Positions 24,189 through 42,200 of a stretch of 42,200 nt of DNA are shown here, in pieces. The stretch's first letter is position 1, and every line of letters begins with the position of its first letter. Position numbers and translations under genes: made by a program. The notes under the pieces are model-generated. The model saw only the letters and a program-made list of their open reading frames with translations. It made no database searches and had not been told where the DNA came from. Source of the DNA: Propionibacteriaceae bacterium (GTDB taxonomy: Bacteria; Actinomycetota; Actinomycetes; Propionibacteriales; Propionibacteriaceae); contig JAIRYW010000012.1 in the NCBI GenBank assembly GCA_031267645.1, positions 1 to 42,200 of the forward strand. Reading direction: 5' to 3'.

Positions 24189-24200
24189 GGGGAGGATGCC

Positions 24201-25730
24201 ATGACGTTTCCTTGGTTGACCGCCCTGGCGGTCCTGCCCCTGCTGGGGGCCTGCCTGATCGGCCTGGTCAAAGCTTGGCCGGGCCGCCTGGTCGGCTTGG
24301 TCACGGCCTTGGCCAGCTTGGCCCTGGGCGGCTGGGTGGCCTGGCTCCAGGTCTCGGACGCCGCCGTCGATCTGTCCGAGCGGGTGGGCTGGTTGGACGC
24401 CCTCGGCTCGGCTTACGCACTGCGCCTGGACGGCATGGGCCTGGCCATGGTCCTGCTCACCGTCGTCTTGGTCCCGCTGGTCTTGATCGCCGAGTGGCGC
24501 ACCGGCGCCGAGCCCGGCCCGGCCCGCTTCTCCTCCGGAACCTTCTCGGCCCTGGTCCTGCTGGTCGAGTCCTGTTCCTTGTTCGTCTTCCTGGCCGACG
24601 ACGCCATCCTCTTCTACGTCTTCTTCGAAGCCAGCCTGATCCCGATGTACTTCTTGATCGGCGGCTTCGGCTCCGATCCGGTCAAGCGTTCGGCCGCCGC
24701 CGTCAAATTCCTCCTCTTCGGCTTGGCCGGCGGCCTGCTCATGCTCTTCGCCCTGGTCGGCACCGGCGCTCTGTCCGCCCGCGACGGCCAGATCACGATG
24801 AGCCTGACCGAGTTGGCGGCCCGCCAGTTGTCCGGTTCGGCCCTGTCCCAGGTCGTCTTCGTCGGCTTCTTCTTGGCCTTCGCCCTCAAGGCTCCGATGG
24901 TGCCCGGTCACACTTGGCTGCCTCAGGCGGCGGCCCAGTCGACCGGCGGCGGGGCCGCCCTCATGGTCGGCGTGCTAGACAAGCTGGGCACCTTCGGCAT
25001 GGTCCGCTTCTGCCTCGTCCTCTTCCCCCAGGAGGCCCACTGGGCCACCCCGGTCATCATCGGGCTGGCCGTCTTGTCCATCCTCTACGGCGCCTTCGCC
25101 GCCCTCGGCCAGCGCGATCTGCTGCGTCTGGTGGCCTTCACCTCGATCAGCCACTTCGGCTTCATGGTGTTGGGCTTGTTCACCCTCACCACCTCTTCTT
25201 TGACCGGGTCGATCTTCTACATGGTCAACCACGGTCTGTCCACCGGCGCCCTCTTCCTCTTGATCGGATACCTGGTGGACCGCCGCGGTTCGGCCCAGGT
25301 CTCGGCCTTCGGCGGCCTGGCCAAGGTCGCCCCGGTCCTGGCCGGATTCACCCTGGTGGCCGGCCTGGGCGGTCTGGCCCTGCCCGGCACCTCCAGCTTC
25401 GTCTCCGAGTTCATGGTCATGGCCGGGGCTTGGTCCCGCTTCCCGCTGGTGGCCGCCCTAGCCGCCCTGGGCACCGTCTTCGCCGCCCTCTACATCCTGT
25501 GGACCTACCAACGTCTGATGACCGGGCCGCTGAACGAGGCCGCGGCCGAGCGCTTCAGCTCGGATCTGCCTTGGCGTCAGCGTTTGGCGGTGGCGCCGCT
25601 GCTCTTCGCCATCTTGGCCCTGGGCTTCTTCCCCCGCCCGGCCCTCGACCTGATCACTCCGACCAGTCAGACGATCATGACCGAGGCCGGCGCGACCGAC
25701 CTGGCCCCCGTCGTGAAGGGAGTCAAGTAG
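24201..25730 (+). CDS. nuoM: NADH-quinone oxidoreductase subunit M
   Basis: This 509-residue antiporter-like subunit has about 14 transmembrane helices. The channel glutamate is E143 in VFFEASLIPMYFLIGGFG. The HTWLPQAAAQSTGGGAALMV segment and VGVLDKLGTFGMVRFCL follow actinobacterial NuoM. The usual Asp after HTWLP is Gln here. The start has a GGGGAGG site. The stop TAG is directly followed by the ATG of nuoN without a gap. Confidence 0.95.
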   Translation: MTFPWLTALAVLPLLGACLIGLVKAWPGRLVGLVTALASLALGGWVAWLQVSDAAVDLSERVGWLDALGSAYALRLDGMGLAMVLLTVVLVPLVLIAEWRTGAEPGPARFSSGTFSALVLLVESCSLFVFLADDAILFYVFFEASLIPMYFLIGGFGSDPVKRSAAAVKFLLFGLAGGLLMLFALVGTGALSARDGQITMSLTELAARQLSGSALSQVVFVGFFLAFALKAPMVPGHTWLPQAAAQSTGGGAALMVGVLDKLGTFGMVRFCLVLFPQEAHWATPVIIGLAVLSILYGAFAALGQRDLLRLVAFTSISHFGFMVLGLFTLTTSSLTGSIFYMVNHGLSTGALFLLIGYLVDRRGSAQVSAFGGLAKVAPVLAGFTLVAGLGGLALPGTSSFVSEFMVMAGAWSRFPLVAALAALGTVFAALYILWTYQRLMTGPLNEAAAERFSSDLPWRQRLAVAPLLFAILALGFFPRPALDLITPTSQTIMTEAGATDLAPVVKGVK

Positions 25731-27353
25731 ATGACCGCCGCCGTCCTGCCTCTGTTGGAGTTCACCCCTCCGACCATCGACTACGTCCGGCTGCTGCCTT
25801 TCCTGATCGTCATGGCGGCGGCCTGCCTCGGCGTCCTGGTCGAGGCCTTCGTGCGGCGGGCCTGGCGCCACGAGGTCCAGGTCGGCCTGGCCTTGGTGGC
25901 CCTGGTCTGCGCCTTGGCCGTCATCGTCACCGGTTGGGGCTCGGACGCCCTGGGCTTGGCCGACCCGATCGGCCCCGACCAGTTGGTCGGTTCGGTCATG
26001 GTGGACGGTCCGACCCAGGTCTTCTGGCTCATGCTGGTGCTGTTCGCCTTGCTGTCGGTCTGTCTGATGGCCGAGCGCCGGGTCTACGCCGGCCGCAACG
26101 CTTTCGCCCCCATGGCCGCCGCCATCCCCGGCTCCCGGGCCGAGGCCGAGGCCGACCAAGCCGGTCTGGAGCACGCCGAGGTCTTCCCCCTGACCTTGTT
26201 CTCCTTGTCCGGCATGATGCTCTTCGTGGCCGCCGACGACCTGCTGCTCATGTTCGTCGGTTTGGAGATCCTGTCTCTGCCGCTCTACGTCCTGGCCGCC
26301 TTGGCCCGCCACCGCCGCCTGGTCTCGCAGGAGGCGGCCCTGAAATACTTCCTCCTCGGCGCCGCCGCCTCGGCCATCTTCCTGTTCGGCGCGGCCCTGC
26401 TCTTCGCTTACGCCGGTTCTTTCGACTTCGACTTGATCGCCTTGCGTTACGACCACGGCGCCGCCGCCGACCGTCTGCTCTGGGCCGGTCTGGGCCTGAT
26501 CCTGGTCGGCTTGCTGTTCAAGATCTCGGCCGTGCCCTTCCACTCCTGGGCCCCCGACACTTACCAGGGCGCGCCCACCCCGGTCACCGCTTTCATGGCC
26601 GTCTGCACCAAGATCGCCGCCGTCGCCGCCCTGCTGCGCCTGCTCTTCGTGGCCCTGGGCGCGGCCCGCTGGACCTGGCAGCCCATCATCGCCGGCCTGG
26701 CCGTCTTGACCATGTTGGTCGGCCCCTTGCTGGGCGCCGTCCAGCACAATGTCAAACGTCTGCTGGCTTATTCTTCGGTCGCCCACGCCGGCTTCCTGCT
26801 GACCGGTCTGGCCGGGGCCCTCACCTTGCAGTCCGGTTTGACCGAGGGCCAGTTCGGCGCCGTCTCGGCCATCAGTTTCTACCTGGTGGCTTACGGTCTG
26901 GCCACCATCGCTTGTTTCGCCGCCGTCACGCTGGTCCAGAGCGGTGGCCGCGAGGCCACCGAGCTGGCCGCTTGGTCCGGCCTGGGTCGGCGCCACCCTT
27001 GGTTCGGCCTGGTCATGTTGGTCTCCCTGTTGTCTTTGGCCGGCATCCCCCTGACGGCCGGCTTCGTTGGCAAGTTCGCTATTTTCACAACCGCTTGGCG
27101 CGGTGGCTATTGGTGGCTGGCCTTGGCCGGCGTCTTGTTCTCCTTGGTGGCGGCTTACGTCTACGTCCGCCTCCTGGTGACGCTCTTCTTCCGTCCTTCG
27201 GACGACCAGGTCGAGCTGCGGCTGCCCGGTCCGGCCACCGCCGTGGTCTTGACCTTGACCGTGATCGGGTCGCTCGCCTTCGGCTTGGTCCCCGGTCCGC
27301 TGGCCGACCTGCTGGGCCAGGCCTCCGTCTTCCTGCGTTCGGTCCACGGCTGA
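25731..27353 (+). CDS. nuoN: NADH-quinone oxidoreductase subunit N
   Basis: This 540-residue antiporter-like subunit is adjacent to NuoK in the complex. It shows the family segments GLEILSLPLYVLAALAR, KYFLLGAAASAIFLFGAALL, the FKISAVPFHSWAPDTYQGAP loop (Lys at about 264) and HNVKRLLAYSSVAHAGF. It is slightly longer than E. coli NuoN because of an N-terminal extension and a hydrophilic insert near residues 115-145. Its ATG abuts the nuoM stop and its TGA shares a base with the next ATG (TGATG). Confidence 0.95.
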   Translation: MTAAVLPLLEFTPPTIDYVRLLPFLIVMAAACLGVLVEAFVRRAWRHEVQVGLALVALVCALAVIVTGWGSDALGLADPIGPDQLVGSVMVDGPTQVFWLMLVLFALLSVCLMAERRVYAGRNAFAPMAAAIPGSRAEAEADQAGLEHAEVFPLTLFSLSGMMLFVAADDLLLMFVGLEILSLPLYVLAALARHRRLVSQEAALKYFLLGAAASAIFLFGAALLFAYAGSFDFDLIALRYDHGAAADRLLWAGLGLILVGLLFKISAVPFHSWAPDTYQGAPTPVTAFMAVCTKIAAVAALLRLLFVALGAARWTWQPIIAGLAVLTMLVGPLLGAVQHNVKRLLAYSSVAHAGFLLTGLAGALTLQSGLTEGQFGAVSAISFYLVAYGLATIACFAAVTLVQSGGREATELAAWSGLGRRHPWFGLVMLVSLLSLAGIPLTAGFVGKFAIFTTAWRGGYWWLALAGVLFSLVAAYVYVRLLVTLFFRPSDDQVELRLPGPATAVVLTLTVIGSLAFGLVPGPLADLLGQASVFLRSVHG

Positions 27354-28387: not shown

Positions 28388-30343
28388 TCACCAGATCGTC
28401 ACCCGGTCGGCCGGGTCCAGCCACATGCCGTCGCCCGGTCGCACGTCGAAGGCCTGGTGGAAGGCGTCCAAGTTGCGGGCCGGTTGGTTGCAGCGGAACT
28501 CGGCCGGGGAGTGGGGGTCGACCGCCAGCTGTTGGGCCACGTATTCGTCGCGGGCCTTGGTGGCCCAACACTTGGCCCAGCTGATGAATAGCCGCTGGCT
28601 GCCGGTCAGGCCGTCGACCACCTGGTCGTCGTCGCCGCTGGCCTGACGCCAAGCCTTCCAGGCGATGCCCAACCCGCCCAGGTCGCCGATGTTCTCGCCG
28701 ATGGTGAGTTCGCCGTTGACCTTCCGGCCGGGGGTCTGGGCCGGGGACAGGGCGGCGTACTGGTCGATCAGCCGGCCGGTCCTGGCCTCGAAGCGCTCCC
28801 GGTCCTGGGGCGTCCACCAGTCGCGCAGACGGCCCTGCCCGTCCGTGGTCGAGCCTTGGTCGTCGAAGCCGTGGCCGATCTCGTGGCCGATGACGGCCCC
28901 GATGGCGCCGAAATTGGTGGCCGGGTCGGCCTCGGGGTCGAAGAAGGGCGGCTGCAAGATGGCGGCCGGGAAGACGATCTCGTTGCGCAGGGGATGGTAG
29001 TAGGCGTTGACCGTCTGCGGGGTCATCAGCCACTCGTCCGGGTCGACCGGCCGGCTCAGCTTGGCCAGCTGATGGGCGCTCTCATTCAGCCCGGCCCGGA
29101 TCACATTGCCCACCAGGTCGCCCGGAACCAGCTCCAGCCCCGAGTAGTCGCGCCAACGCGCCGGGTAGCCCAACTTGGCCCGGAAACCGTCCAGCTTGGC
29201 CCAGGCCTGCTCTTTGGTGGTCTGGCTCATCCAGTCCAGCCGGCCGATCGAGGCTCGGTAGGCCGCCAGCAGATGGTCCACCAACTCCTCGACCTGGGCC
29301 TTGGCCGAAGCCGGGAAATGGCGTTCGACGTAGATCTGGCCCAAAGCCTCGCCCAAGGCCGCCTCGATCAGGTCGAGCGCCCGCTTCCAGCGCGGTTTCA
29401 GCTGGGGGGTGCCCAGCAGGGCCCGGCCGTAGAAGTCGAAGCGGGCCCGCACGAAGTCGTCCGATAGATAAGGCGCCAGATCACTCACCAAGCGGACCCG
29501 GGCCCAGTCCCGCCAGACCTCCAGCCGGTCCGGCTGGAGCAGGGCCGCCACCTCGACGAAGAAGCTGGGCTGGCAATCGACCAGCTCCACCACCGACTGG
29601 TCGATCCCGGCCCGGGTCAGGATCGTCTCCCAGCCCAGCCCGGGGGCGGCCTGCGTCAACTCGGCCCGCTGGCGCAGGTTGTACATCGCCACCAAGTCGC
29701 GCGTCTTGACGATGTCCCAGTGGCAGGCCGCGATCTGGCGCTCCAGCTCCCAGACCGCCTCGGCCCGCTGCTCGCTCTGGTCGATCCCGGCCAATTCCAA
29801 GGCCCGGGCCAGATAGACCCGGTAGGCCTGGCCCACCGCCGCGTGCTCCGGCTGACGGTAGTAAGACTCGTCCGGCAGACCCAGCCCGGCTTGGGCCACG
29901 AATAGGACCTGGCGGCTGGGCCGGCCCGGGTCGACCTCCACCGCCAGGTCGAGCAGAGAGCTCAGCCCGGCTCCGGCCGACCAGCCCAACCAGCTCCGCA
30001 GGCCCTCCAGGTCGGCGATCCGCTCGATCTGGTCCAGCCACTGGGCCAACGGTGCGGCGCCCGAACTCTCAACCTTGGCCTCATCCATGAAGTCGCGCCA
30101 CAGTTGGCCCAAGCGGGCCGTCGCCGGCTGGTCGGCCAGCGCCGGATCCTGTGCCAATTCTTGACAGATCTGACGGCCGGCTTCCAGGCTGGCCTCTTGT
30201 AGACGCTCGAACACCCCGGTCACCGGTTTGTCCTCCGGAATCGTCTGTTCGGCTAGCCAGCGGCCGTTGACGTGGCGGTAGAGGTCGTCTTGGGCGCGGC
30301 CGTTCGAGCGGGTACCATTCTCAGTCAGAGTCGAAGCTGTCAT
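28388..30343 (-). CDS. M13 family metallopeptidase (neprilysin/PepO-like)
   Basis: This 651-residue zinc endopeptidase has the hallmark IGHEIGHGFDDQG (zinc ligands H487 and H491, catalytic E488) and GENIGDLGG with the third ligand E550. The substrate-binding NAYYHPLRNEIVFPAAILQPPFFD region and the C-terminal VTIW are also present. The N-terminal QDDLYRHVNGRWL is the typical M13_N start. There is no signal peptide or membrane anchor, so the enzyme is probably cytoplasmic, as many bacterial PepO-like enzymes are. An ATG at 30361 would add six residues. The ATG at 30343 is preferred because a -10-like TAGGCT lies 7 nt before it, giving a leaderless transcript. The gene is divergent from the giant surface-protein gene. 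Confidence 0.92.
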   Translation of the reverse strand: MTASTLTENGTRSNGRAQDDLYRHVNGRWLAEQTIPEDKPVTGVFERLQEASLEAGRQICQELAQDPALADQPATARLGQLWRDFMDEAKVESSGAAPLAQWLDQIERIADLEGLRSWLGWSAGAGLSSLLDLAVEVDPGRPSRQVLFVAQAGLGLPDESYYRQPEHAAVGQAYRVYLARALELAGIDQSEQRAEAVWELERQIAACHWDIVKTRDLVAMYNLRQRAELTQAAPGLGWETILTRAGIDQSVVELVDCQPSFFVEVAALLQPDRLEVWRDWARVRLVSDLAPYLSDDFVRARFDFYGRALLGTPQLKPRWKRALDLIEAALGEALGQIYVERHFPASAKAQVEELVDHLLAAYRASIGRLDWMSQTTKEQAWAKLDGFRAKLGYPARWRDYSGLELVPGDLVGNVIRAGLNESAHQLAKLSRPVDPDEWLMTPQTVNAYYHPLRNEIVFPAAILQPPFFDPEADPATNFGAIGAVIGHEIGHGFDDQGSTTDGQGRLRDWWTPQDRERFEARTGRLIDQYAALSPAQTPGRKVNGELTIGENIGDLGGLGIAWKAWRQASGDDDQVVDGLTGSQRLFISWAKCWATKARDEYVAQQLAVDPHSPAEFRCNQPARNLDAFHQAFDVRPGDGMWLDPADRVTIW

Positions 30344-30350
30344 GACTTCC

Positions 30351-30356
30351 AGCCTA
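30351..30356 (-). promoter_or_regulatory. -10 element of a probable leaderless M13 peptidase promoter
   Basis: On the minus strand, TAGGCT (TANNNT) is followed by seven bases and then the ATG at 30343. This is the same spacing logic as upstream of menF. No Shine-Dalgarno site is convincing for either candidate ATG. No -35 is visible. Confidence 0.4.
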
Positions 30357-30449
30357 TCCATCCGGTCCGGCCGCTCCGCCTCCTCCAGAGTGGCCGCATT
30401 GACCGGGGTCGACTCGGGCCCGCCGCAGCGGCCCGACTCTCCGGCGGTG

Positions 30450-30478
30450 TTGCCATTGCCGACCTATACCAATAGAGT
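30450..30478 (+). promoter_or_regulatory. Candidate promoter of the giant surface-protein gene
   Basis: TTGCCA (30450-30455) and TAGAGT (30473-30478) are separated by 17 bp and resemble -35 and -10 elements. The leader would be about 85 nt and contains a GAGAGT/ACTCTC pair of inverted sequences. The 208-bp divergent region (30362-30569) is less GC-rich than its surroundings and holds no visible small gene. Confidence 0.45.
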
Positions 30479-30569: not shown

Positions 30570-33500
30570 ATGACCTCCGCCCCCTCCACCAGGTTCCGTC
30601 ATGTCTTGCAGCGCGTCGGGAAGCCAGTCGCCTGGCTGTCCGCCCTCGCGCTCGCGGTCGGGGGGGTGACAGTCGCCCAGCAGTTCCAAGGAGCGGACGA
30701 GGCCGAAGCCCTCTACCCACCCACTTCCGGCACCGGTGATAAGAAGCTCAGTGTCGGAGTGACTTGGAGCACCAACGCTGTCTACGTCGCGGTCTCTGCT
30801 TCCGACCGCGTCGCTCGCTTCACCACCAACTCCGACGGGCTCATCACCTCGAACGCCCTGACCACGGTGGCGACGATGGGGCGGGCTTGGACCGGGGCGG
30901 GCACCGCCGCCAACGGCGCCGAGTCCATGGCGCTCGACGGTGGCGAGTTCACCGGCACTCCGATGGCTTACTTCTGGGGTTGGAACGCCTACGAAGGCGA
31001 CATCTACGGCGGCTCCGCTCCGGCCACCAGCGGCGACATCCAGGTCCAAGCTTTCCCCAACGGCGCCGTCAACTCCTACGCCTTCCGCATCCTTCAGCCC
31101 TCCGGCACTGGCAGTGGCGGCACCTACGACTACTGGTCCGGCGGCGAGGTCATTCAGCGGACCGGTGAGATCTTTTTCTCCGGTGGCGAGTGCAACCGCA
31201 TCAACGGCAGCTACCGCATGATGATCGTCGACCCCGGCACCAAGGCCTATCGGGCTTCCGGTCTGCTCAGTCCGGCCTCCGCTTCGGATCACCTCTGGGG
31301 GTCTAGCACCGGCAATACCTGCACCGACACCGCTTTGGGTCGAGTCGCCTCCGACATGGCTTTGGACGGCTACGGCAACGCCTACATCCTGGTCCAGGGC
31401 CAGGCCGCGGCCGGCAGCCAGTGGGCCCCGAACGGCGTCTCAGTCCGTCACATCTACCTGGTCCGGGTCGTGCCCGGAGCCAACCTCTCCGGCTGGAAAT
31501 ACAACATCGTCCAGGTGCTGCAAGCCGCCCCTGGCGCTTCCTCCGACGTGTACGCCTGGACTGGCACCGCCACCGGCGCCTCCAACATGGACTTCGTCTT
31601 CGGCATGGCTTTCCTCAACGGCCATCTCTACGCCACCCGCGGCACTGGTCTGACCCCTTCTACGGCCGATCTGATGCGCATCGATCCCCTGAGCGGCTTG
31701 GTCTACCACGTGCCTGAGAACTCCATTGCCGACGTCAGTCCCGCTCCCTACGACCTGGCCTCCGGCCAGACCGCCTATGTCACCGCCGGCCAGGTCTTCA
31801 ACGACGTCAACGCCAACGGCGTGCGGGAGGCCGACGAGCCTGGCTTGGCCAACCAGATCATCACCCTCTACAAAGAGAACGCGGCCGGCGCTTGGGTCTG
31901 GCTCGGCACCCGTCAGACCTCCGGCACCGGCGACTATTCCTTCATCGTGTCCGGCCAGGGGACTTACCACGTCCGCCTGGTCCAACCCAAGATCGGCGGC
32001 GTCAACGCCGTCCAGACTTACGCCAGCTCCGGCGAGTCGCCGCCTTCCTCCCGGGGCCTGAACACGGTCAGCGCTCAGTGCTACGACTACGGGACCGAAA
32101 CGGTCGTGCCCTTGACCGCCTCCGGCGTCTGCCGCGGCGCCCTGCCCGTGCCGTACAGCGACGCTGGCTCGGCCGGCTCTCTGGGTGGGATCCTGTCCGC
32201 TCTGGACCAAGTCGCCATCCACTCCACCATGGTTTTGACGAACGCTTACGACATCCCGGCGGCCGACTTCGGCGTCACCGCGCTGGGCTCCTTCGGCGAC
32301 GCCGGCACCGGCCCGGCCACCGTCGCCGCCGCCGCCCCGGTCCACGTCACCGGTCTGACTCCCAGCATCTTCTTGGGCTCCGTCCAAGGCAGCTACACCG
32401 CCCCCGCCACCGACAACGCCGCCCATAACGCCAGCGACGACGGCGTCTACATGCAGGCCTACAACGGGGCCAGGATCCCGCTCAACCAGGTCGGCGTGCT
32501 GGCCGCCCAGCGCACCTACGACAACCTCAAGGCCCAGGTCTCGGGCGACTTGGCCGGCTCCGCCGACGCCCAGGTCCAAGGCTGGATCACCTCTCCCGTC
32601 GCCTCCGGCAATGGCGCCTGGGCCGCGGCGCCGTCTTGGACGCCCACCATCAGCTCCGGCGTCGCCTCGGGCGGCTTCATCCCCTCCACCGTCAACACCC
32701 TGCTGGCGACCCCGCAGTACGTCAACATGCGGGTCGCGGTCTCGACTCAAGCCACCACTGTGCCCACCAACGCCTCCAACCAATACCAGTCCACCGGCGG
32801 CTCGCCTTGGGTCACCAACGGTGAGATCGAGGATTACCGCTACCAGGTGGCGGACGCCGCCTACCGGGTGGCCGCCCAATCCAACGGTGGCACCGGCACC
32901 TTCACCGTCGACGGCCAGAGCCTGACCACCGTCGCCTCCGCGACGGTCTACGGCGTCGGCTCCGGCCTCGCCGCCGGCTCGGCCAAGACCGTCACGGTCA
33001 CTCTGCCCAACGCTTCCTGGCAGGTCGACCACGTCGAGGTCAGGGACACCAGCGACGGCGCCCTGGTGGCCTCCCCGGTCTACAACGAGAACACCGCCAC
33101 CTCCGGCACCTTCAGCTTCACTCCGGCCCTGAGCCAAGATCTGACCGCCTTGGTCGTCTTCACCAAGGCCCCCGATCCGGTCAAGTCCGAGCTCTCCCTC
33201 AGCGCCGCTACCGCCACGGTCGGTGCCGACATCACCGCCACCGCCACCGTCAAGACGGCCGAGGACGTCCTGCTGCCCAATGTCACGGTCCGCTTCCAGG
33301 CCGCCACCGACCTGGTCGTCCACGCCGGCCAGTCCTCCCAGCCGGTCAGCCAGTGCACCACCAACATCGACGGCGTCTGCTCCGTCCTCGTCACCTCCAG
33401 TGTCGCCGCCAGCTATTCCAACGGCTTGGTGGCCCAGGTCTGGACCGACAACGCCTGGCGCGATCTGACCGGCAGCCCGGCCAGCCTCGCCTTCACGGCC

Positions 33501-36500
33501 GACGCCGGTCGCCCCGGCAGCTCCCAGCTGGTGGTCAGCCCGGCCGGCCCGCTGGTGGTCGGTTCCTCCTCCGCCAACACCTACGCTCTGACCACCACCA
33601 TCCGTGACGGCTCCAACAACCTGGTGCCCGGCGCCGAAGTCACCTTCTCGGTCGACGGCGTCGACGGCTCGCCCATCGACGCCGGTTTGGGCGGCCTGTC
33701 CGCTCTGACCGCCCAGACCGGGTCGGACGGCGTCGCCAGCGTCACCTTCACCTCGACCAAGCCGGGCTCTTTCCGCTTGCACGCCCAGATCCCGAACCCG
33801 GAGGCCGGCAACGTCTTGACCGACGTGGGCGGCTCCGACCCGACTCTGAGCAGTCCCCAGGTCCGGGTCTTCAACCCCGCGCCGACCCGGGGCGACGTCT
33901 CCGCCTTCGTGGTCGCCCCGCTCAACAATCTGCTCGGTGAGACGGCCGTCGCCACCGTGACCTTGAAGGACGGCTACGAAAACGCCATCCCGGGTCGCAG
34001 CCAAGCCAGCCTCAACATCGCGACCGGCTGCTCTGTCGCCAGCGACTTCGCCGAGATCGGCAACGGGGTCTACACCTTCAACCTGACCGTCACCGGTACG
34101 GTCGCCTGCGAGGACACTGTCACGGTCACGCCCGACGTCGGCGTCACCCTGCAGCAGACCGTCCGCTGGGCGGTGCCGCAGCCGACTGAGACCTACTCCG
34201 ACCTGGTCCTGTCGCACAGCTCTCAGACGGTCGGCCAGAACGTCGTCGCCACCGTCACCGTGCGCGACCAGCACGATCGGCCCATCACCGGTCTGACCGC
34301 CGCCCAGGTCGTCTTGAGCTCCGACCCGACCGATGTCACCATCACTGGCTTCCGGGCTCTGACCGCCGCCGGCGACGAGGGCAAGTACGAGTGGGATCTG
34401 ACCTCCACCGTCTCCGGCCTCAAGACCATCACCGCCGTCGTCTCCGGCGTCACCTTCAACGCTGCGGTCCGCCAGGTCACCTTCACCGCGGACGTGCCCA
34501 CCGAACTGAACTCCAGCTTCCGTATCACGCCGGCCAGCTTGCAGGTCCAAGGCGTCGCCCTCGCCAGCTTGGTGGTCAGAGACCAATACGGCAATGGCGT
34601 GCCGGACGTCGCTCCGACGCTCAACTACGGCGCCTTGACCCGTCTGAGCGGTCCGACGGCCGGCACTGGCCCCGGCACCGGCCTTTACACCTGGTTCCTG
34701 ACCACTTCGACCGCCGGCGATTACACCGTCACCGCCACAGTGCCGGTGCCGGGCGACGACGACATCGTCTTGACCGACACGGTCAGCTTCGTCGCCGGTG
34801 ACATCACTGGTCTGGACTTCGACTACTCGCCCGCCTCCGTGCCGGTCTCCGACTCGGCTGGAGCCACCATGGTCGGAGCCGGCCAGGTCTTCGACGACCA
34901 GAACAACGCGGTGCGGGGCCTGACCTTGGACGACTTCGAATTGACCTACCGTCAGGTGGCCGATCCCGACGACTCCACCACCTGGGTCGCCAGCACCGAC
35001 GTCCAGGTCGTCCCCGGCTCCTTCGCCGAGGACGCCAGCGGCAATTACTCCTTCGACGTCTACTCTCAGGTGGCCGGCTCTTACGAGGTCACCGTGGCTG
35101 TCCATGGCGTGGAGCAGTTGCTTGACTACTTGGTCACTTTCACGGCCGAGACGCCCGACCAGGACGGCGCCAGCCTGTCCATCACGCCCGACCCCAGTTA
35201 CGTCGGCACCGAGGCCCAGATGGCTCTGACCGTGACCGACCGCTTCGACAACCCGGTCCCCGGCCTGGCCAGCGGCCTGACCGTCGCCCCGTCGTCCGAC
35301 TACAGCCCGGTCGGGGCCTGGGTCGAGCAGTTCGACCAGTACGGCGCCAGCACCGGCGTCTACCACCGCGGTCTGACCTCCGACAGTTCCGGCACCCACA
35401 CCGTCAGCGTCACGGTGCCGGCCTCGCCCAGCGCTCTGACCGTCACCGACGACATCACCTTCCAGTACGCCATGGGCGGCACCGTCACCTTGAGCTTCAA
35501 CGCTGGGCCGCACTATGTCTCGGAGCAGGCCGGCGCCACCGCCGTCGCCACCGTCAACGTGTTGGACGCCAACAACCAGCCCATCACCAACCTGCTCGAC
35601 GCCGACTTCGACTTCGACTTCGACGCCGACGTCCACCTGGTGCCGGGCAGCTTCGCCAACCTGAGCAACGGCAATTACAGTTATTCTCTCTATTCCACCG
35701 TGGCCGACACCTATGACATCGAGGTCGGCCTCGACCTGGTCGGCTCCGACAGCGAGTCGCTCACCTTCCTGCCCACCGAGCCGGACGACACCAACACCAG
35801 CTTCGTCATCGACCCGGCCACCCAGGTGCCGGGCAGCAGCGTCACCGGCACGGTCACGGTCAAGGACGCCTTCGGCAACCCGATCAGCGGGCTGACGGCG
35901 GCTGGCTTCGACCTCGACGCCGACGGCCTGACCGTCGTCTCCGGGCCGACCGCCGACGCCGGCACGCCGGGCGACTACACCTACGTCTTCAGCTCCAACG
36001 TCACCAACGTCTACGACCCGACCGTCACGGTCGGCCAGGTCACCAAGACGGCCCAGGTCGAATATCTCTTCGGCTCGGTCGACCCCGCTTTCTCGGACGT
36101 CACGGTCAACCCGGCCCAGCAGGTGGTGGACCAGACCGTCGGCATCACGGTCACGGTGCGCGACTCCTCGCCCGGCCACAACCTGATCAACAACCTGACT
36201 CAGGCTGACTTCGAGATCACGGCCGCCTCGCAGACCGCCGGCGCGCCCGACCGCGGCGCCAGCTTCGTCTCCAATAACAACGACGGCACCTACACCTTCA
36301 GCGTCACTTCGCAGCTGATCGGCCAGTTCGCCGTCCAGGCCACTGTCCTGGGCTCCCTCCTGGACGACCATCCGGTCATCACCTTCACCGCCTCCGGCGT
36401 CTGCGTCAACAACTGCCATCCGATCGATCCGACCCATCGCACCCGGGTCGAGATGACTGCCAACGACCAGCTGTCCGACGGCTCCCACCAGGACAAGGCC

Positions 36501-39500
36501 GTGCTCTACGCCTACGACACCAATGGCAACCCGGTCAAAGACGCCCAGGTGGTGGCTCAGGCCGCCGCCGGCAACACCAACCTGACGCCGCAGACCAACA
36601 ACGCCACCACCGGTCCTGACGGCACCGCCGAGCTGGCTTGGACCTCGCTGGTCCAGGGCACTTACACCGCCACCGTCACGGCCGACGGCCTGACCCCGGC
36701 CGTCGGCGGCGTCCTCAGCCAGATCCGCTTCAGCCAGACCCAACCGGCTTCGACCGTCCTGACGGTGACGCCGTCCGGCCCCTTGACGGTCGGCGGCACG
36801 TACACCGCCGAAGTCCAGGTGCGCGACGCCCAGAGCACGCCGCTGGAAGGCATCAATATCAGCTTCTCCGCTCTGGTGTCTTCCTCTGGCGAGCCCAACC
36901 CGTCGGCCAGCCTGTCCGAACAGACCTGCCAGACCGGCCTCAACGGCCGCTGCTCGATCACCGTCACCTCTCAGATCGCTGGCGTCTACAACGTCAACGC
37001 CACCGTGCCGATCGACGGCGTCGCCACGCCGGCCACCGACAGCCCGACGCCGATCACCTTCAATCCGGGCCCGGTCTGCGTCCAGGACTGCCAGCCGGTC
37101 GATCCCACCCGGGTCACCCGGGTCGAGGTGACCAAGAACGGTCAGCCGCCCTCCGGCGTCGACGAGGCCACGCTCCACGCCCATGACACCTACGGCAACG
37201 CCGTCTCCGGCGCCACCGTCACCACCAGCACGACCGACTCCGGTCTGACCGTGCTGACGCCCAATGTCCAGACCGCTGCCGACGGCAGCGCCGTCCTGCA
37301 GTACACCTCGGTCGTGGCCGGGGCCCATCCGGCCCAGGTCCGAGTCGACAGCCAGACCCCGAACGGCTCGCCCGTCTCGCTCGTCTTCGTGTCCAACCCG
37401 GGCGATCCCGGTCAGTCCTTCCTGACCGCCACCCCGGCTGGTCCGCTGGCCGCCGGCGGCATGTACACCATCACCGCCACGGTGCTCGACTCGACCGGTC
37501 TGAACCGGGTCAACGGCATCCCGATCAGCTTCACCGGCCAGTCCGGCCTGACTTTCGTCAACGGCGTCGACTCTTGTGAGACCGCCGGTTCCGGGGCCAC
37601 CGCCGGCACCTGCTCGGTCCTGGTCACCAGCCGTTTGGCCGGCTCGTACCAGGTCGGCGCCACCATGCCGGACTCCGGCGGTGTCACCCAGTCGCTGAAC
37701 AATAGCCCGATCGAGGTCGAGTTCGTGGCCAGCACGATCTGCATCACCGGCTGCGACCCGATCGACCCGACCCATTACAGCCACGTCGAAATCATCAAGA
37801 ACGGCGCCGATTTCAATGGCGTCGACCATGACATCGTGCGGGTCTTCGCCTACGACTACAGCGGCAACCCGGTCTCCGGGGCCGCCGTCTCCGCCGCCAC
37901 CACGGACGCCGATCTGACCGTCCAGCCCACCATCGATTCCACCGGCCCGGACGGCGTCTCGACCGTCTGGTTCGCCTCGACCGTGGCCGGCCCCCATGAC
38001 GCCACCGTCACGGTCGGCGGACTGCCGGCCGGCGGCTGGCCCGTCACCTTGGCCTTCGGCGAAGGTAAGGGCGATCCCGACCATTCCAGCTTCGCCATCG
38101 TTCCGGATGGTCCGCTGGTGGTGGGCGACGGCGCGGCCAACACCTACACCGTCACCGCCACCGTCAACGACATCTTCGACAGCCCGGTCACCGGCGCGGT
38201 GGTGGCCTTCACGGTCACCCCCGCCGTCGCCGACGGTCCGGTCTTCGGCGGCGGTCAGGACACCTGCACCACCGTCTCCGGCACCTGCCAGGTGACGCTG
38301 TCCTCGACCAAGTCGGGCACCTACGCCATCGGCGCCGAGCTGTCTTCCGGCGCCATCGGCACCGCTCAGACGCGGGCTTGGCAGGCCGACGAGGTCTGCG
38401 CCCAGTCGGCTGGCTGCACGCCGGTCGATCCGACCTCGCCGCGCACCCGGGTCGAGGTCGAGATCGACAACCAGCTGGCCGACGGTTCGACGCCTGACAT
38501 CGCTCTCCTCTACGCCTACGACAAGTGGGGCAACCCGGTGCCCAGCGTCTTGGTCGAGTCCGCCACCACGGACTCCGCCCTGACCATCCTGCCCGGCACC
38601 GAGGGCACCAACGAGCAAGGCCAGTCCAGAATCCGTTACACCTCGACCGTCGCCGGCGCCCATGAGGCCACGGTCACGGTCCAGGGCAAGACGCCGAACG
38701 GCTCGCCCATCACGCTCAACTTCAAGCCCGGCCCGATCTCGCCCGACACCACCAGCTGGGCGATCGATCCGGTCACCCAGGTGCCCGGCAACACCGTCAC
38801 CGGCACTCTGACCGTCAAGGACGAGTTGGGCAACCCGGTCGACGGCATCCCGGCGGGCGACATCAGCCTGGTTCCGGACGGTCTGACCGTGGTCTCCGGA
38901 CCCACCGCCCAGGGCGACGGCCAGTACACCTACGTCTTCAACGCCACCGCCGCCGACACCTACGACCCTGAGGTGACGGTCCGGGGCGTCGTCAAGACCG
39001 CCTCGGTCACCTACGGCTACGGAGAAATCGACGCCAGCGCCTCGACCGTCGTCATCAGCCCGACCGAGCAGCGGGCCGGTCAGAACATCCAGGTCATCAT
39101 CACGGTCAAGGACGTCTCGGCCTCGCACAATCCGATCCCGGATCTGGCTCCGTCCGCCTTCACCGTCACGGCCACCTCGCAGACGGCCGGCGCGCCCGAC
39201 CTGACCGGTTCCTTCGTCTCCAACAACAACGACGGCACCTACACCTTCAACATCTCCTCGCGGCTGGTCGGCCAGTTCGCCGTCCAGGCCACGGTCCAAA
39301 GCGTGCTCTTGGCCAACCATCCGGTGGCGTCCTTCATCGCCGGCGGCGTCTGCGTCACCAACTGCACCCCGGTCGATCCGACCCACGTCACGCGGCTCGA
39401 GATGATCCAAAACGATCAACTGTCCGACGGTTCCAGCCCGGACAAGGCTCGGGCCTACGCCTATGACACCTATGGCAACGCGGTCAATCTGGCTCAGGTC

Positions 39501-42200
39501 CGGGCTCAGGCCGCCGCCGGCAACGCCGCTCTGACACCGCAGATCAACCAGGCGCAGACCGGCCCCGACGGCACCGCCGAGCTGGCTTGGACCTCGCTGA
39601 CCCCGGGCGTTTACACCGCCACCGCCACGATCGACGGTCTGGAGCCGGCCACCGGCGTGCTGAGCGCGATCCGCTTCAACCAGACCCAGCCCGATCCGGA
39701 CCAATCGACCCTGACCGTGACCCCGGACAGCCCGATCACGGTGGGCAACTCGTACACCGCCCGGGTCGAGGTGAGGGACGCCCAGGGCACTCCGTTGGCG
39801 GGCGTCACGGCCAGCTTCTCGGCTCTCGTCTCCTCCTCCTCCGAACCGAACCCGGTCGCCAGCCTGTCTCAGCAGACCTGCTACACCGGTCTCAACGGCA
39901 CCTGCTCGATCACGGTCACCTCTCAGATCGCCGGCGTCTACGCCGTCACCGCCACGGTGCCGGTCCAAGGTCAGGCCACCAACGTCCAGAACAGCCCGGC
40001 CCAGGTCGCCTTCACTCCCGGCCCGGTCTGCGTCAGCAACTGCCAGAACGTCGATCCGACCCGGCACACCCGGGTCGAGGTGACCCGGAACGGCCAGCCG
40101 CCCAACGGCGTCGACGAGGCCATGGTCTACGCCCATGACACCTACGGCAACGCCGTCAGCGATGTCGTCGTCACCACCAGCACGACCGATCCGACTCTGA
40201 CCGTGCAGACGCCCAACGTTCAGACCGGTCCCAACGGCAGCGCCGTCCTGCGCTTCACCTCGGCTGTGGCCGGAGCCCATCCGGCCCAGGTCACGGTGGC
40301 CTCGCAGGCCATCACCGGTTCGCCCGTCACCCTCAACTTCGTCGAGGGCGACGTCGATCCCAGCCAGTCCTTCCTGACCGTCACGCCGACCGGTTCATTG
40401 GCCGCCGGCGGCTTGTACACCGTCACCGCCACAGTGCTGGATTCGACCGGTCTGAACCGGGTCAACGGCGTGCCGATCAGCTTCTCCGGCCAATCCGACT
40501 TGACCTTCGTCAACGGTCTGTCCACCTGCACCACCGCGGGCGTCGGCTCCACCGCCGGCACCTGCTCGGTCCAGGTCAGCAGCAAGGTGGCCGCCTCCTA
40601 CCAGGTCGGCGCCACCATGCCGGACACCAGCGGCGTCTCTCGGCCGCTGAGCAACAGCCCGGTCACGGTCTCCTTCATCGCCGGCCCGATCTGCGTCACC
40701 AACTGCACGCCGATCGACCCGGCCGACGTCACGCGGGCTGAGGTGATAACGAACGGGGCCGCCTTCGACGGCAACGATCACGATGTCGTCCGGGTTTACG
40801 CCTATGACACTTACGGCAACCCGGTCTCCGACGCCGCAGTCGCCTCCACCACCAGCGACGCCGACCTGTTCATCCAGCCGGCCGGCACCATCCAACCGAC
40901 TGGCGCCAACGGCACCGTCACGGTCTGGTACGCCTCGACCGTGGCCGGCGACCACAGCGCTAACGTCACGGTCGGCGGTCTGACGCCGAACGGTTCTCCG
41001 GTCACCCTGGGCTTCGGCTCCGGCACCGGCGATCCCAGCCGCTCCAGCTACACCATCGCGCCGGCCGGCCCGCTGGTCGTCGGCACTGAAGCGGTCAACA
41101 CTTACACCATCACCGCCACCGTCAACGACGTCTTCGGCGCTCCGGTCATCGGTGAGGTGGTGACTTTCAAGGTCGACCCGGCCGGTCCGGTCTTCGGCGG
41201 CAATCTGAACTCCTGCACCACGGCCGCCGGCGGCACCTGCCAGGTGACGTTGTCCTCGACCAAGTCGGGCACGTACTCGATCACGGCCAACCTCAAAGCC
41301 GGTCCCATCGGCACCGGCCAGTCGCGGGCTTGGCAGGCCGACGAGGTCTGCGCCCAGTCGGCCGGTTGCATCCCGGTCGATCCCAACTCGCCGCGCACCC
41401 GGGTCGAGGTCACGCTCGACGACCAGCCGGCTGACGGCTCGACGCCTGACAAAGCCATCCTCTACGCCTACGACAAGTGGGGTAACCCAGTTCCCGGCGC
41501 CCTGGTCGAATCCGTCACCACGGACTCCGATCTGACCATTCAGCCCAGCATTCCCGGCACCAACGATCAGGGTCAGTCCGAAATCCTCTACACCTCGACC
41601 GTCGCCGGCGCCCATCAGGCCACGCTGACGGTCCAAGGCAAGACGCCGACCGGCTCGCCCATCACGCTCAACTTCAAACCCGATCAGATCTCGGCCGCCA
41701 ACACGACCTGGGTCATCGAGCCGTCCAACCAGATCCCGGGCAATCCGGTCACCGGCACCCTGACCGTCCAGGACGCCCAGCACAACCCGATCGACGGCAT
41801 CCCGGCCGGTGAGATCAATCTCATCCCCGGCGGTTTGACCGTCGTCTCAGGTCCGACCGCCCAGAGCGACGGGCAATACGTCTATGAGCTGACCGCCACC
41901 CAGACCAACACCTACGACACTGAGCTGACGGTCCGCGGCGTCACCAAGACCGCCTCGGTCACCTACGGCTACGCGCCCATCGACGCCAACGCCTCGACCG
42001 TCGCCATCAACCCGGCCGAGCAGACGGCTGGTCAGAACATCCAGGTCATCGTCACGGTCAAGGACTCCTCGGCTTCGCACAACCCGATCCCGAACCTCGA
42101 CCCGTCCGCTTTCACTGTCACGGCCACCTCGCAGACGCCCGGCGCGCCCGACCTGACCGGTTCCTTCGTCTCCAACAACAACGACGGCACCTACACCTTC
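30570..42200 (+). CDS. Giant secreted Ig-like repeat surface protein (SdrD_B and GEVED domains), 3' end beyond window
   Basis: The frame is open from ATG 30570 to the last base: 3,877 codons with no stop, so the protein is larger still. The order is as follows. Residues 1-47 are a signal peptide (Arg/Lys start, hydrophobic 20-36, likely cleavage after EAEA). Residues about 48-400 look like beta-propeller blades (MALDGYGNAYILV, LMRIDPLSGLVYHV). An SdrD_B-like domain at about 407-490 begins GQVFNDVNANGVREADEPG. A GEVED-like domain covers about 535-757 and ends GEIEDYRYQV. About eight single Ig-like domains follow (871-1743), then a tandem 984-residue super-repeat from 1744 on. The repeated YAYDTYGNPV and LTVTPxGPLTVG blocks resemble bacterial Ig-like (Big_1/invasin) domains. 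A surface adhesin or stalk is likely; a wall anchor would lie outside the window. The ribosome-binding site is weak. Confidence 0.9.
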   Translation, partial: MTSAPSTRFRHVLQRVGKPVAWLSALALAVGGVTVAQQFQGADEAEALYPPTSGTGDKKLSVGVTWSTNAVYVAVSASDRVARFTTNSDGLITSNALTTVATMGRAWTGAGTAANGAESMALDGGEFTGTPMAYFWGWNAYEGDIYGGSAPATSGDIQVQAFPNGAVNSYAFRILQPSGTGSGGTYDYWSGGEVIQRTGEIFFSGGECNRINGSYRMMIVDPGTKAYRASGLLSPASASDHLWGSSTGNTCTDTALGRVASDMALDGYGNAYILVQGQAAAGSQWAPNGVSVRHIYLVRVVPGANLSGWKYNIVQVLQAAPGASSDVYAWTGTATGASNMDFVFGMAFLNGHLYATRGTGLTPSTADLMRIDPLSGLVYHVPENSIADVSPAPYDLASGQTAYVTAGQVFNDVNANGVREADEPGLANQIITLYKENAAGAWVWLGTRQTSGTGDYSFIVSGQGTYHVRLVQPKIGGVNAVQTYASSGESPPSSRGLNTVSAQCYDYGTETVVPLTASGVCRGALPVPYSDAGSAGSLGGILSALDQVAIHSTMVLTNAYDIPAADFGVTALGSFGDAGTGPATVAAAAPVHVTGLTPSIFLGSVQGSYTAPATDNAAHNASDDGVYMQAYNGARIPLNQVGVLAAQRTYDNLKAQVSGDLAGSADAQVQGWITSPVASGNGAWAAAPSWTPTISSGVASGGFIPSTVNTLLATPQYVNMRVAVSTQATTVPTNASNQYQSTGGSPWVTNGEIEDYRYQVADAAYRVAAQSNGGTGTFTVDGQSLTTVASATVYGVGSGLAAGSAKTVTVTLPNASWQVDHVEVRDTSDGALVASPVYNENTATSGTFSFTPALSQDLTALVVFTKAPDPVKSELSLSAATATVGADITATATVKTAEDVLLPNVTVRFQAATDLVVHAGQSSQPVSQCTTNIDGVCSVLVTSSVAASYSNGLVAQVWTDNAWRDLTGSPASLAFTADAGRPGSSQLVVSPAGPLVVGSSSANTYALTTTIRDGSNNLVPGAEVTFSVDGVDGSPIDAGLGGLSALTAQTGSDGVASVTFTSTKPGSFRLHAQIPNPEAGNVLTDVGGSDPTLSSPQVRVFNPAPTRGDVSAFVVAPLNNLLGETAVATVTLKDGYENAIPGRSQASLNIATGCSVASDFAEIGNGVYTFNLTVTGTVACEDTVTVTPDVGVTLQQTVRWAVPQPTETYSDLVLSHSSQTVGQNVVATVTVRDQHDRPITGLTAAQVVLSSDPTDVTITGFRALTAAGDEGKYEWDLTSTVSGLKTITAVVSGVTFNAAVRQVTFTADVPTELNSSFRITPASLQVQGVALASLVVRDQYGNGVPDVAPTLNYGALTRLSGPTAGTGPGTGLYTWFLTTSTAGDYTVTATVPVPGDDDIVLTDTVSFVAGDITGLDFDYSPASVPVSDSAGATMVGAGQVFDDQNNAVRGLTLDDFELTYRQVADPDDSTTWVASTDVQVVPGSFAEDASGNYSFDVYSQVAGSYEVTVAVHGVEQLLDYLVTFTAETPDQDGASLSITPDPSYVGTEAQMALTVTDRFDNPVPGLASGLTVAPSSDYSPVGAWVEQFDQYGASTGVYHRGLTSDSSGTHTVSVTVPASPSALTVTDDITFQYAMGGTVTLSFNAGPHYVSEQAGATAVATVNVLDANNQPITNLLDADFDFDFDADVHLVPGSFANLSNGNYSYSLYSTVADTYDIEVGLDLVGSDSESLTFLPTEPDDTNTSFVIDPATQVPGSSVTGTVTVKDAFGNPISGLTAAGFDLDADGLTVVSGPTADAGTPGDYTYVFSSNVTNVYDPTVTVGQVTKTAQVEYLFGSVDPAFSDVTVNPAQQVVDQTVGITVTVRDSSPGHNLINNLTQADFEITAASQTAGAPDRGASFVSNNNDGTYTFSVTSQLIGQFAVQATVLGSLLDDHPVITFTASGVCVNNCHPIDPTHRTRVEMTANDQLSDGSHQDKAVLYAYDTNGNPVKDAQVVAQAAAGNTNLTPQTNNATTGPDGTAELAWTSLVQGTYTATVTADGLTPAVGGVLSQIRFSQTQPASTVLTVTPSGPLTVGGTYTAEVQVRDAQSTPLEGINISFSALVSSSGEPNPSASLSEQTCQTGLNGRCSITVTSQIAGVYNVNATVPIDGVATPATDSPTPITFNPGPVCVQDCQPVDPTRVTRVEVTKNGQPPSGVDEATLHAHDTYGNAVSGATVTTSTTDSGLTVLTPNVQTAADGSAVLQYTSVVAGAHPAQVRVDSQTPNGSPVSLVFVSNPGDPGQSFLTATPAGPLAAGGMYTITATVLDSTGLNRVNGIPISFTGQSGLTFVNGVDSCETAGSGATAGTCSVLVTSRLAGSYQVGATMPDSGGVTQSLNNSPIEVEFVASTICITGCDPIDPTHYSHVEIIKNGADFNGVDHDIVRVFAYDYSGNPVSGAAVSAATTDADLTVQPTIDSTGPDGVSTVWFASTVAGPHDATVTVGGLPAGGWPVTLAFGEGKGDPDHSSFAIVPDGPLVVGDGAANTYTVTATVNDIFDSPVTGAVVAFTVTPAVADGPVFGGGQDTCTTVSGTCQVTLSSTKSGTYAIGAELSSGAIGTAQTRAWQADEVCAQSAGCTPVDPTSPRTRVEVEIDNQLADGSTPDIALLYAYDKWGNPVPSVLVESATTDSALTILPGTEGTNEQGQSRIRYTSTVAGAHEATVTVQGKTPNGSPITLNFKPGPISPDTTSWAIDPVTQVPGNTVTGTLTVKDELGNPVDGIPAGDISLVPDGLTVVSGPTAQGDGQYTYVFNATAADTYDPEVTVRGVVKTASVTYGYGEIDASASTVVISPTEQRAGQNIQVIITVKDVSASHNPIPDLAPSAFTVTATSQTAGAPDLTGSFVSNNNDGTYTFNISSRLVGQFAVQATVQSVLLANHPVASFIAGGVCVTNCTPVDPTHVTRLEMIQNDQLSDGSSPDKARAYAYDTYGNAVNLAQVRAQAAAGNAALTPQINQAQTGPDGTAELAWTSLTPGVYTATATIDGLEPATGVLSAIRFNQTQPDPDQSTLTVTPDSPITVGNSYTARVEVRDAQGTPLAGVTASFSALVSSSSEPNPVASLSQQTCYTGLNGTCSITVTSQIAGVYAVTATVPVQGQATNVQNSPAQVAFTPGPVCVSNCQNVDPTRHTRVEVTRNGQPPNGVDEAMVYAHDTYGNAVSDVVVTTSTTDPTLTVQTPNVQTGPNGSAVLRFTSAVAGAHPAQVTVASQAITGSPVTLNFVEGDVDPSQSFLTVTPTGSLAAGGLYTVTATVLDSTGLNRVNGVPISFSGQSDLTFVNGLSTCTTAGVGSTAGTCSVQVSSKVAASYQVGATMPDTSGVSRPLSNSPVTVSFIAGPICVTNCTPIDPADVTRAEVITNGAAFDGNDHDVVRVYAYDTYGNPVSDAAVASTTSDADLFIQPAGTIQPTGANGTVTVWYASTVAGDHSANVTVGGLTPNGSPVTLGFGSGTGDPSRSSYTIAPAGPLVVGTEAVNTYTITATVNDVFGAPVIGEVVTFKVDPAGPVFGGNLNSCTTAAGGTCQVTLSSTKSGTYSITANLKAGPIGTGQSRAWQADEVCAQSAGCIPVDPNSPRTRVEVTLDDQPADGSTPDKAILYAYDKWGNPVPGALVESVTTDSDLTIQPSIPGTNDQGQSEILYTSTVAGAHQATLTVQGKTPTGSPITLNFKPDQISAANTTWVIEPSNQIPGNPVTGTLTVQDAQHNPIDGIPAGEINLIPGGLTVVSGPTAQSDGQYVYELTATQTNTYDTELTVRGVTKTASVTYGYAPIDANASTVAINPAEQTAGQNIQVIVTVKDSSASHNPIPNLDPSAFTVTATSQTPGAPDLTGSFVSNNNDGTYTF
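35799..38753 (+). repeat. Super-repeat copy A (985 codons)
   Basis: This is the first complete unit of the large tandem repeat in the giant gene. It runs from SFVIDPATQVPG (residue 1744) to just before SWAIDPVTQVPG (2729) and contains about nine Ig-like domains. Cysteine-containing linkers mark four of them, at codons 36402, 37077, 37740 and 38397. Alignment by eye with copy B is in frame and nearly gap-free. Confidence 0.9.
36402..38753 (+). repeat. Four ~220-residue Ig doublets inside copy A
   Basis: Each doublet starts with a CX3C linker (CX5C in the fourth) followed by (P)xDPT and a first Ig-like domain with YAYDxxGNPV. A second Ig-like domain starting LTVTPxGPL then carries its own Cys pair, for example C2120 and C2128. 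The fourth doublet lacks the second domain before copy B begins. The equivalent set in copy B spans 39351-41705. Confidence 0.8.
38754..41705 (+). repeat. Super-repeat copy B (984 codons)
   Basis: This is the second complete unit, beginning SWAIDPVTQVPG. Its cysteine linkers fall at 39351, 40029, 40692 and 41349, with spacings of 226, 221 and 219 codons against 225, 221 and 219 in copy A. The same domain order is kept throughout. Confidence 0.92.
41706..42200 (+). repeat. Super-repeat copy C, start only (cut by window edge)
   Basis: The third unit begins TWVIEPSNQIPG and is cut after the shared SFVSNNNDGTYTF block, which starts at 36261, 39210 and 42162 in the three copies. Its beginning looks closer to copy B than to copy A, judging by shared GTLTV, DGIPAGEI and TASVTYGY blocks. 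Confidence 0.9.

Follow-up and report, generated by a model that had tools for sequence, protein, structure and literature searches.

A giant Ig-domain protein of a Propionibacteriaceae bacterium as a probable wall-anchored fibrillar adhesin

The gene on the plus strand at 30570..42200 of the DNA analysed here (the window, 42,200 nucleotides from a Propionibacteriaceae bacterium) probably encodes a wall-anchored fibrillar adhesin of about 6000 residues, the first 3877 of which lie on the contig. In the window, this reading builds on a secreted-type start, a conserved head, an SdrD_B domain, a GEVED-type region and a stalk of Ig domains; the anchor-type tail was found in relatives.

Reading frame and selection on the gene

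The window is the whole of contig C12 (42200 bases) of a 2.85-Mb genome in 76 contigs, designated G000, and its genus (g1) is represented by 19 genomes. From the ATG at 30570 to the last base, one frame of 3877 codons runs without a stop, complete at its 5′ end and ended at its 3′ side by the contig edge. The single uninterrupted 11.6-kb frame of the original prediction was confirmed, and it leaves the window only at the end of the assembly, because the window is the entire contig. Upstream of the ATG, the same frame remains open for only 20 further codons without ATG, GTG or TTG, a good argument for the assigned start. The protein begins with MTSAPST in the window and likewise in its nearest relative, that of the congeneric genome G184. 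The predicted signal peptide was also recovered by eye: the signal-peptide-like region (residues 1–45; 30570..30704, plus strand) shows a basic start and a hydrophobic run at about residues 19–36, with AEA near residue 46. A promoter-like site, TTGCCA-17-TAGAGT (30450..30478, plus strand), carries 9 of 12 consensus bases, a match that does not by itself speak for function.

The length of the frame alone is no proof of a gene, because the antisense strand is also open in the same place, with a frame of 2946 codons over the repeats (31440-40280, minus strand). The GC content of the stretch is 66–70%, and the codon-position GC of the giant frame is 0.60/0.53/0.90. The antisense openness results from third positions that are 90% GC (mirror effect), and the antisense frame was rejected as a gene on this ground. 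A comparable antisense open frame, of 5288 codons, was observed in G187. Judged by homology, by its coding-type codon-position GC and by a dN/dS below 1 against G184, the giant frame is a real gene. The ratio was 0.58 over 3633 codons (dN 0.244, dS 0.417), compared with 0.20–0.25 for NuoN, NuoM, NuoL and the M13 peptidase in the same pair of genomes. The giant is under purifying selection, yet, relative to silent change, its protein evolves at two to three times the rate of these four neighbours. The values for two parts of the head were 0.67 and 0.49, regional ratios that rest on few codons each. Faster evolution than that of the neighbours would fit a surface protein, where it is common.

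Queried by DNA and protein search with the contig end, with the super-repeat and with the final 700 residues of the relative in G184, the genome yielded no continuation of the gene; apart from the window, the matches were one of 31 bases on C61 and a differently built anchored protein on C76. When the genome was searched with the anchor alignment, two matches were obtained, and the one listed was a separate gene of 2541 codons on C11. The missing 3′ end may be absent from the assembly or lie beyond the reach of these searches. A plasmid-borne origin was rejected, residues 46–769 having no match in 72,556 plasmid records; an assignment of the window protein to TIGR03436 was rejected with a score far under the cut-off.

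Head, SdrD_B and GEVED-type regions

The head domain, residues 46-400 (30705..31769, plus strand), was called propeller-like by motif and by a weak internal repeat. No Pfam family was matched by these residues in the window protein. The alignment of 21 relatives revealed the motifs WSGGEVIQxTGEI, MMIxDPxTGxY, SDMALDxxGNAYI, and GMAFxNGxLY, together with invariant D, W and Y positions. Among 29 N-termini, single rows gave weak Pfam matches to Kelch_6 (E=0.0072), a beta-propeller repeat (E=0.084) and a cellulose-binding family (E=0.057). Internally, residues 118-170 resembled 262-308, about 143 residues apart, with a best pairwise E of 1e-4 and a probability of 57% among 300 segment pairs. A PDB profile search with the head gave no match below E=0.02; the best two matches, LMO4/LDB1 fusion proteins, were taken as chance, and the next were glutamine cyclotransferase (E=0.14) and YjiK (E=0.42), both of which we take to be propellers. 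The motifs, the two weak single-row propeller-type Pfam matches and the weak internal repeat are suggestive of a beta-propeller, and the propeller-like head of the original prediction keeps this standing only. Two AlphaFold2 models built from two-row alignments (window and L056, described below) were poor, reached a mean pLDDT of 41 for residues 46-400 and 30 for 401-769, and were not used as evidence.

The head might have carbohydrate as its target and be either a propeller-type lectin or the remnant of an enzyme that keeps plant or host polysaccharide close to the cell. This would be a narrower form of the adhesin reading, with which its odds overlap, and we consider it possible but doubtful. 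The invariant D, W and Y positions, the three single weak matches among the 29 rows and the gut setting inferred for one relative (described below) are in its favour, whereas Pfam gave no match to a CBM or a glycosidase in the window protein and the propeller fold is only suggestive.

The head is followed by an SdrD_B-like domain at about residues 408-480 (31791..32009, plus strand), which was supported, as originally proposed, by a Pfam match with E=1.2e-7 over residues 408-474 and by profile matches to solved chains of SdrD and Uro-adherence factor A. The NCBIfam SdrD match sits on this same part, with 20.3 bits against a cut-off of 2500. The ligand-binding Ig pair of staphylococcal Sdr-type proteins, N2-N3, is of the SdrG_C_C type; no Pfam match to this pair was found in the window protein or in the 29 N-termini.

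The GEVED-type region spans residues 568-768 (32271..32873, plus strand), with the motif GEIEDY at 32820-32837. Its Pfam match in the window (E=0.0084, 17.3 bits) lies under the Pfam cut-off of 24.4, and GEVED was matched at E<=0.1 in 8 of the 29 N-termini. The G, E, E, D and Y of the motif are invariant in 29 aligned rows. The GEVED-like domain that had been predicted is thus upheld by its motif and these invariant residues but not by the Pfam threshold. CshA_NR2 was absent from the Pfam matches of the 29 N-termini at E<=0.1, and a PDB profile search with the GEVED region yielded a nanobody (E=0.089) as its sole match.

Ig-like stalk and super-repeat

The remainder of the frame, residues 911-3877 (33300..42200, plus strand), is an Ig-like (Big_1) stalk of 27-28 domains. 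Big_1 was matched by Pfam over 19 stretches (E=2e-166). When the protein was searched with a profile of its own repeats, 27 Ig-like domains reached E<=1e-3, the first at about residue 911, and a 28th had E=0.002, in agreement with the earlier count of at least 26. A stray match of this profile within SdrD_B (E=0.5) was dropped from the Ig count. One Ig domain is about 4 nm long; on this value, 27 domains would give a stalk of about 110 nm, and the length of the G184 relative would give about 200 nm.

Much of the stalk is built from a super-repeat of nine Ig domains with a unit of 983-984 residues. Copy 1 covers domains 10-18 of 28 (residues 1861-2844; 36150..39101, plus strand), copy 2 covers domains 19-27 of 28 (residues 2845-3827; 39102..42050, plus strand), and the third copy starts with domain 28 (42051..42200, plus strand), which is cut by the contig end. 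At the protein level, copies 1 and 2 share 65-74% identity per domain in eight of nine pairs and 62% in the pair 10/19, and domain 28, which opens the third copy, is 91% identical to domain 19. The 32 cysteines of the stalk fall by spacing into 16 pairs: eight in linkers, seven within domains and one wider. Between 36402 and 41369 (residues 1945-3600), CxxxC linkers followed by DP were observed before every second Ig domain, and the Ig domains between these linkers carry an inner cysteine pair, which gives a two-domain rhythm within the super-repeat.

It is highly improbable that decay or mis-assembly of a repeat array accounts for the gene. The frame does end inside a repeat at the contig end, where the final 150 bases share 92% identity with the preceding copy. 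The 3877 codons nevertheless contain no stop, the dN/dS against the syntenic relative is well below 1, copies 1 and 2 have diverged by 26-38% per domain, and an independent genome, G184, has nearly the same domain order. A copying artefact in the repeats, which the original prediction had named as a result that would speak against it, is unlikely for the last two of these reasons.

Complete relative in G184 and gene neighbourhood

The relative in G184 is complete, with 5995 codons from stop to stop and about 5980 residues. In the 27-domain count, window domains 10-27 best matched G184 domains 9-26 one for one in 16 of 18 cases; for window domains 9, 13 and 22 the G184 match was hidden by a free-end-gap alignment artefact. 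The earlier window domains had their G184 matches in about the same order, with domains 6 and 7 as exceptions. Identities of 100% in this comparison were rejected as short-overlap artefacts of the free end gaps. Beyond the part shared with the window, G184 domains 27-33 resemble a third super-repeat copy and domains 34-40 are other Ig domains; these are followed by a Big_6/Big_13 section and then by an anchor-type tail consisting of the motif PVPTGA, a membrane helix and arginines.

Upstream of the giant lie three nuo-type genes of the NuoL, NuoM and NuoN types (22278..27353, plus strand) and, as its divergent neighbour, a gene for an M13-family metallopeptidase (28388..30361, minus strand); none of these is part of the adhesin. 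The order of nuo genes, small reverse gene, M13 peptidase and giant is common to the window and G184. The nuo and M13 neighbours were not found beside the giant in any of 15 other contig stretches, a limited test, several stretches being short upstream. A functional link between the giant and the nuo genes was rejected on this comparison, and the association with the respiratory locus that had been pointed out earlier looks like plain neighbourhood.

Anchor-type tails

Relatives that have the head and a stop inside the contig were treated as complete (n=13; 2655 to 6953 codons from stop to stop). An anchor-type tail, defined by a motif, a membrane helix and basic residues, was present in 11 of the 13, with TG in ten and SG in one. 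The exceptions were the relative in G164, which lacks such a tail, and that in G178, which stops directly after VVPTGGTVVGQ. The G178 frame (L076, on C2, 2655 codons) has no helix behind TGG, reflecting either real shortening or an assembly error. The G164 relative (L065, on G164:C93, minus strand) has 5645 codons and the same head, with only one match to the window's Ig profile; it has no terminal membrane helix, and its tail appeared dockerin-like by eye, unconfirmed by Pfam.

When the genus was searched with the 11 tails, all 19 genomes gave matches, several of which were inner Ig domains of the same protein. A set of 51 tails was compiled from the 11 and 40 better matches reaching near the profile end, and is biased to the tails that built the profile. 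A hydrophobic helix was present in all 51, TG[GAS] preceded the helix in 44, TGG occurred in 32, and [VI]xTGG in 27. Canonical LPxTG or LAxTG was found in seven of the 51, after exclusion of a regular-expression match inside the helix of L154. Five of the 11 tails matched LPXTG_anchor (TIGR01167) at E<=5, the best with 0.0017; the G184 tail scored 14.2 bits against this profile, under the cut-off of 15.9, and its PVPTGA departs from a strict LPxTG.

The window's genome encodes two more large surface proteins. L104 (G000:C76:22872-30491, minus strand; 2539 codons) ends in LPPTGA, a helix and RRRR, and gave no match to the window's Ig profile. L121 (G000:C11:31475-39100, plus strand; 2541 codons) has a spacer rich in threonine, proline and glutamate, followed by an LPQSGS tail. 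A tail of the LPPTGA or LPQSGS type would be expected for the window giant, because its own genome has a class E sortase together with two such proteins. The original prediction had proposed looking for a stop, a sorting signal and a sortase; stop and tail were located in relatives and a sortase elsewhere in the genome, with none of them in the gene itself, whose end is unassembled.

Sortases and tail types

The sortase family PF04203 was detected in all ten genomes searched, eight of them of the window's genus. The class E sortase on G000:C32 scored 177 bits against a cut-off of 160 and has the catalytic H, C and R, with TLITC at the cysteine; by these residues, the window's genome holds an active-type class E sortase. 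G184, G185 and G186 likewise have a cysteine-bearing class E sortase, and these three and G000 each have in addition a paralogue without the catalytic cysteine (TLVTA or TLVTR), in which Q or R replaces the histidine and a cysteine stands at another nearby place. G175, G178, G181 and G189 have a class E-like protein without the catalytic cysteine (TLTTA or TLVTA), which in G181 also lacks the histidine, and no class E sortase with the catalytic cysteine was found in these four. A class E-like paralogue of the cysteine-less kind was thus observed in all eight genus genomes scanned (L082-L093, L163-L173).

The same two families flank this paralogue in G000, G175, G184 and G186, with one extra frame called between paralogue and neighbours in G184 and one neighbour on the other strand in G186. 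G185 and G189 have one of the two families beside it, G178 and G181 none. In G175 the neighbours are pyrE and a spermidine-synthase-type gene. Because of the shared neighbour families, the protein of G175 seems to be this old paralogue and not a decayed active copy.

Across these eight genomes of one genus, the tails come in two dialects: xPxTG[AS]-like where the cysteine-bearing class E sortase is present, and [VI]xTGG where it was not found. By hand count, TGG was found in 12 of 12 tails in the four genomes without the cysteine-type enzyme and in 0 of 11 in the four with it, an association that counts as one or a few events because of shared ancestry. A simple rule linking tail and sortase is also doubtful, since G175 and G189 have further cysteine-bearing sortases (class B-like and class D/F-like by eye) and the genomes G160 and G162, of genus g24, combine a cysteine-bearing enzyme with SGG or TGG tails.

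A more speculative and rather unlikely interpretation is a home-grown display system, in which large anchored proteins would number from several to many per genome, some of them sharing one undescribed head, and some species would have moved off classical anchoring, with no cysteine-type class E sortase, a retained cysteine-less paralogue and [VI]xTGG signals. The paralogue might then be a receptor, a chaperone or a differently working enzyme.

Distribution of the family and habitat

In a protein search with residues 1-812, the N-terminal region was found in 27 of 198 genomes of the family: 17 of the 19 in g1, eight in g24 and two in g29. A profile of the whole N-terminus, with the two best candidates per genome scored, matched in 85 of 391 genomes of the order. 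Long matches covering the head were confined to 23 genomes, all of g1, g24 and g29; a fourth genus, represented by G121, gave a weak partial head match (profile positions 99-265, E=8.2e-6), and the remaining matches start at position 307 or later, on or beside SdrD_B. A head-only profile matched one of 396 genomes of the phylum, the window's own, with up to five candidates scored per genome.

Within the genus, 40 copies of the GEVED region occur in 16 of 19 genomes, with a maximum of eight per genome, and 18 of the 19 have Big_1 domains. Open frames several thousand codons long are recurrent, and G184, G175 and G162 have tandem giants. The rarity suggested for a protein of this size does not hold within its group.

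The several copies per genome and the very long, variable stalks could also point to a structural role, the giants serving as fibres of a coat or matrix, or as spacers that fend off other cells, with the head as a cap or assembly piece; a head without a recognised binding family would agree with this. We regard a structural role as quite unlikely, because each complete relative has one head region, and 11 of the 13 have one anchor-type tail, unlike a self-assembling coat protein, and because the dN/dS of the two head parts is about two to three times that of the four neighbours.

A clue to habitat came from L056 (GenBank JAIRXC010000065.1, bin Gsp477_bin141), which is contained letter for letter in a contig of G186. 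Another bin coded Gsp477 is reported from the lower termite Glyptotermes (PMC11707648). From the shared code, G186 is probably from the same termite sample as the Gsp477 bin; this concerns G186 and not the window's genome. A term search of the main text of a termite survey (PMC9137090) found neither Propionibacteriaceae nor Gsp named there.

Discussion

Under the preferred reading of the giant as a fibrillar adhesin, the rest of the gene, judged from G184, would continue with more Ig domains and a Big_6/Big_13 section and end in a sorting-type TG motif, followed by a membrane helix and arginines. The chain would be exported by Sec and held at the membrane by the tail helix, and the class E sortase would then join the tail to the cell wall. 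The row of Ig domains, partly stiffened by paired cysteines, would place the head 100 to 200 nm away from the cell. There the head may bind a ligand carried by gut material, by a protist or other microbe, or by host tissue. Several points stand against the adhesin reading: the gene's own C-terminus lies beyond the contig, the head has no recognised binding family, the GEVED match is under its cut-off, both AlphaFold2 models were poor, the nearest tail, PVPTGA, is non-strict and under the TIGR01167 cut-off, and the complete relatives in G164 and G178 have no anchor-type tail. The original idea of a binding head held far from the wall on an Ig stalk remains the best reading, although no known binding domain was recognised.

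The giant resembles several described systems. Mobiluncus is actinobacterial, and its giant adhesin is, like the window giant, a surface protein of comparable size composed mostly of Ig-like domains. That adhesin, from Mobiluncus mulieris, is given as 7651 residues with 51 Ig-like domains (PMC10619420). Each of its domains is reported to be cross-linked, by ester, isopeptide, disulfide or thioester bonds (PMC10619420), whereas for the window giant the analysis covered cysteine spacing, the two being compared by description. Fibrillar adhesins are a well-described class in which Big_1 is named as a stalk domain (PMC8286594, PMC9210967). The window giant shares with them a tip region, tandem stalk domains and great length, as well as the anchor-type tail in relatives, but differs in having no recognised adhesive domain and in being far above the average of 1196 residues given for the positive training set (PMC8286594, PMC9210967). 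GEVED was defined from CshA, and SdrD_B-like repeats are described as stalks in Actinobacteria (PMC10952558). As in CshA-type adhesins, a GEVED-type region is followed by stalk domains; unlike in these, there is no CshA_NR2 match, the head in front is another one, and SdrD_B lies ahead of GEVED. With the staphylococcal Sdr adhesins (MSCRAMMs) the giant has the SdrD_B domain in common, but it has no N2-N3 match, and the one SdrD_B found stands between the head and the GEVED-type region.

Long rows of bacterial Ig domains are also shared with SiiE of Salmonella, for which 53 BIg domains and 595 kDa are given, and with invasin/intimin, Big_1 being given as an intimin-type stalk domain. SiiE and invasin/intimin rely on export by type I secretion or on an outer-membrane barrel that holds them, the barrel being N-terminal in intimin/invasin. 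The window giant differs from them in its Sec-type start and its actinobacterial host, and no outer-membrane barrel was matched by Pfam at E<=0.01 across the 3877 residues. Huge proteins have been surveyed (PMC11573180). In titles and abstract openings, among the matches listed, no report was found on this protein family or its composite head; subscription journals lay mostly outside this scope. Giant surface adhesins of the Ig type are a known kind, and the composite head would be the new part among the literature matches listed. The stronger suggestion that the gene represents an undescribed surface system is not supported, because giant fibrillar adhesins with Ig domains have already been described.

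According to these results, actinobacteria of a little-studied group, one of them probably from a lower termite gut, regularly carry adhesin-type surface proteins of very large size in several copies. Close relatives differ in signals and sortases and so provide a natural experiment on the change or loss of sortase recognition, and the conserved head is named as a target for a ligand search. Binding of the heads to protists, wood or the gut wall, if it occurs, would explain how these bacteria keep their place.
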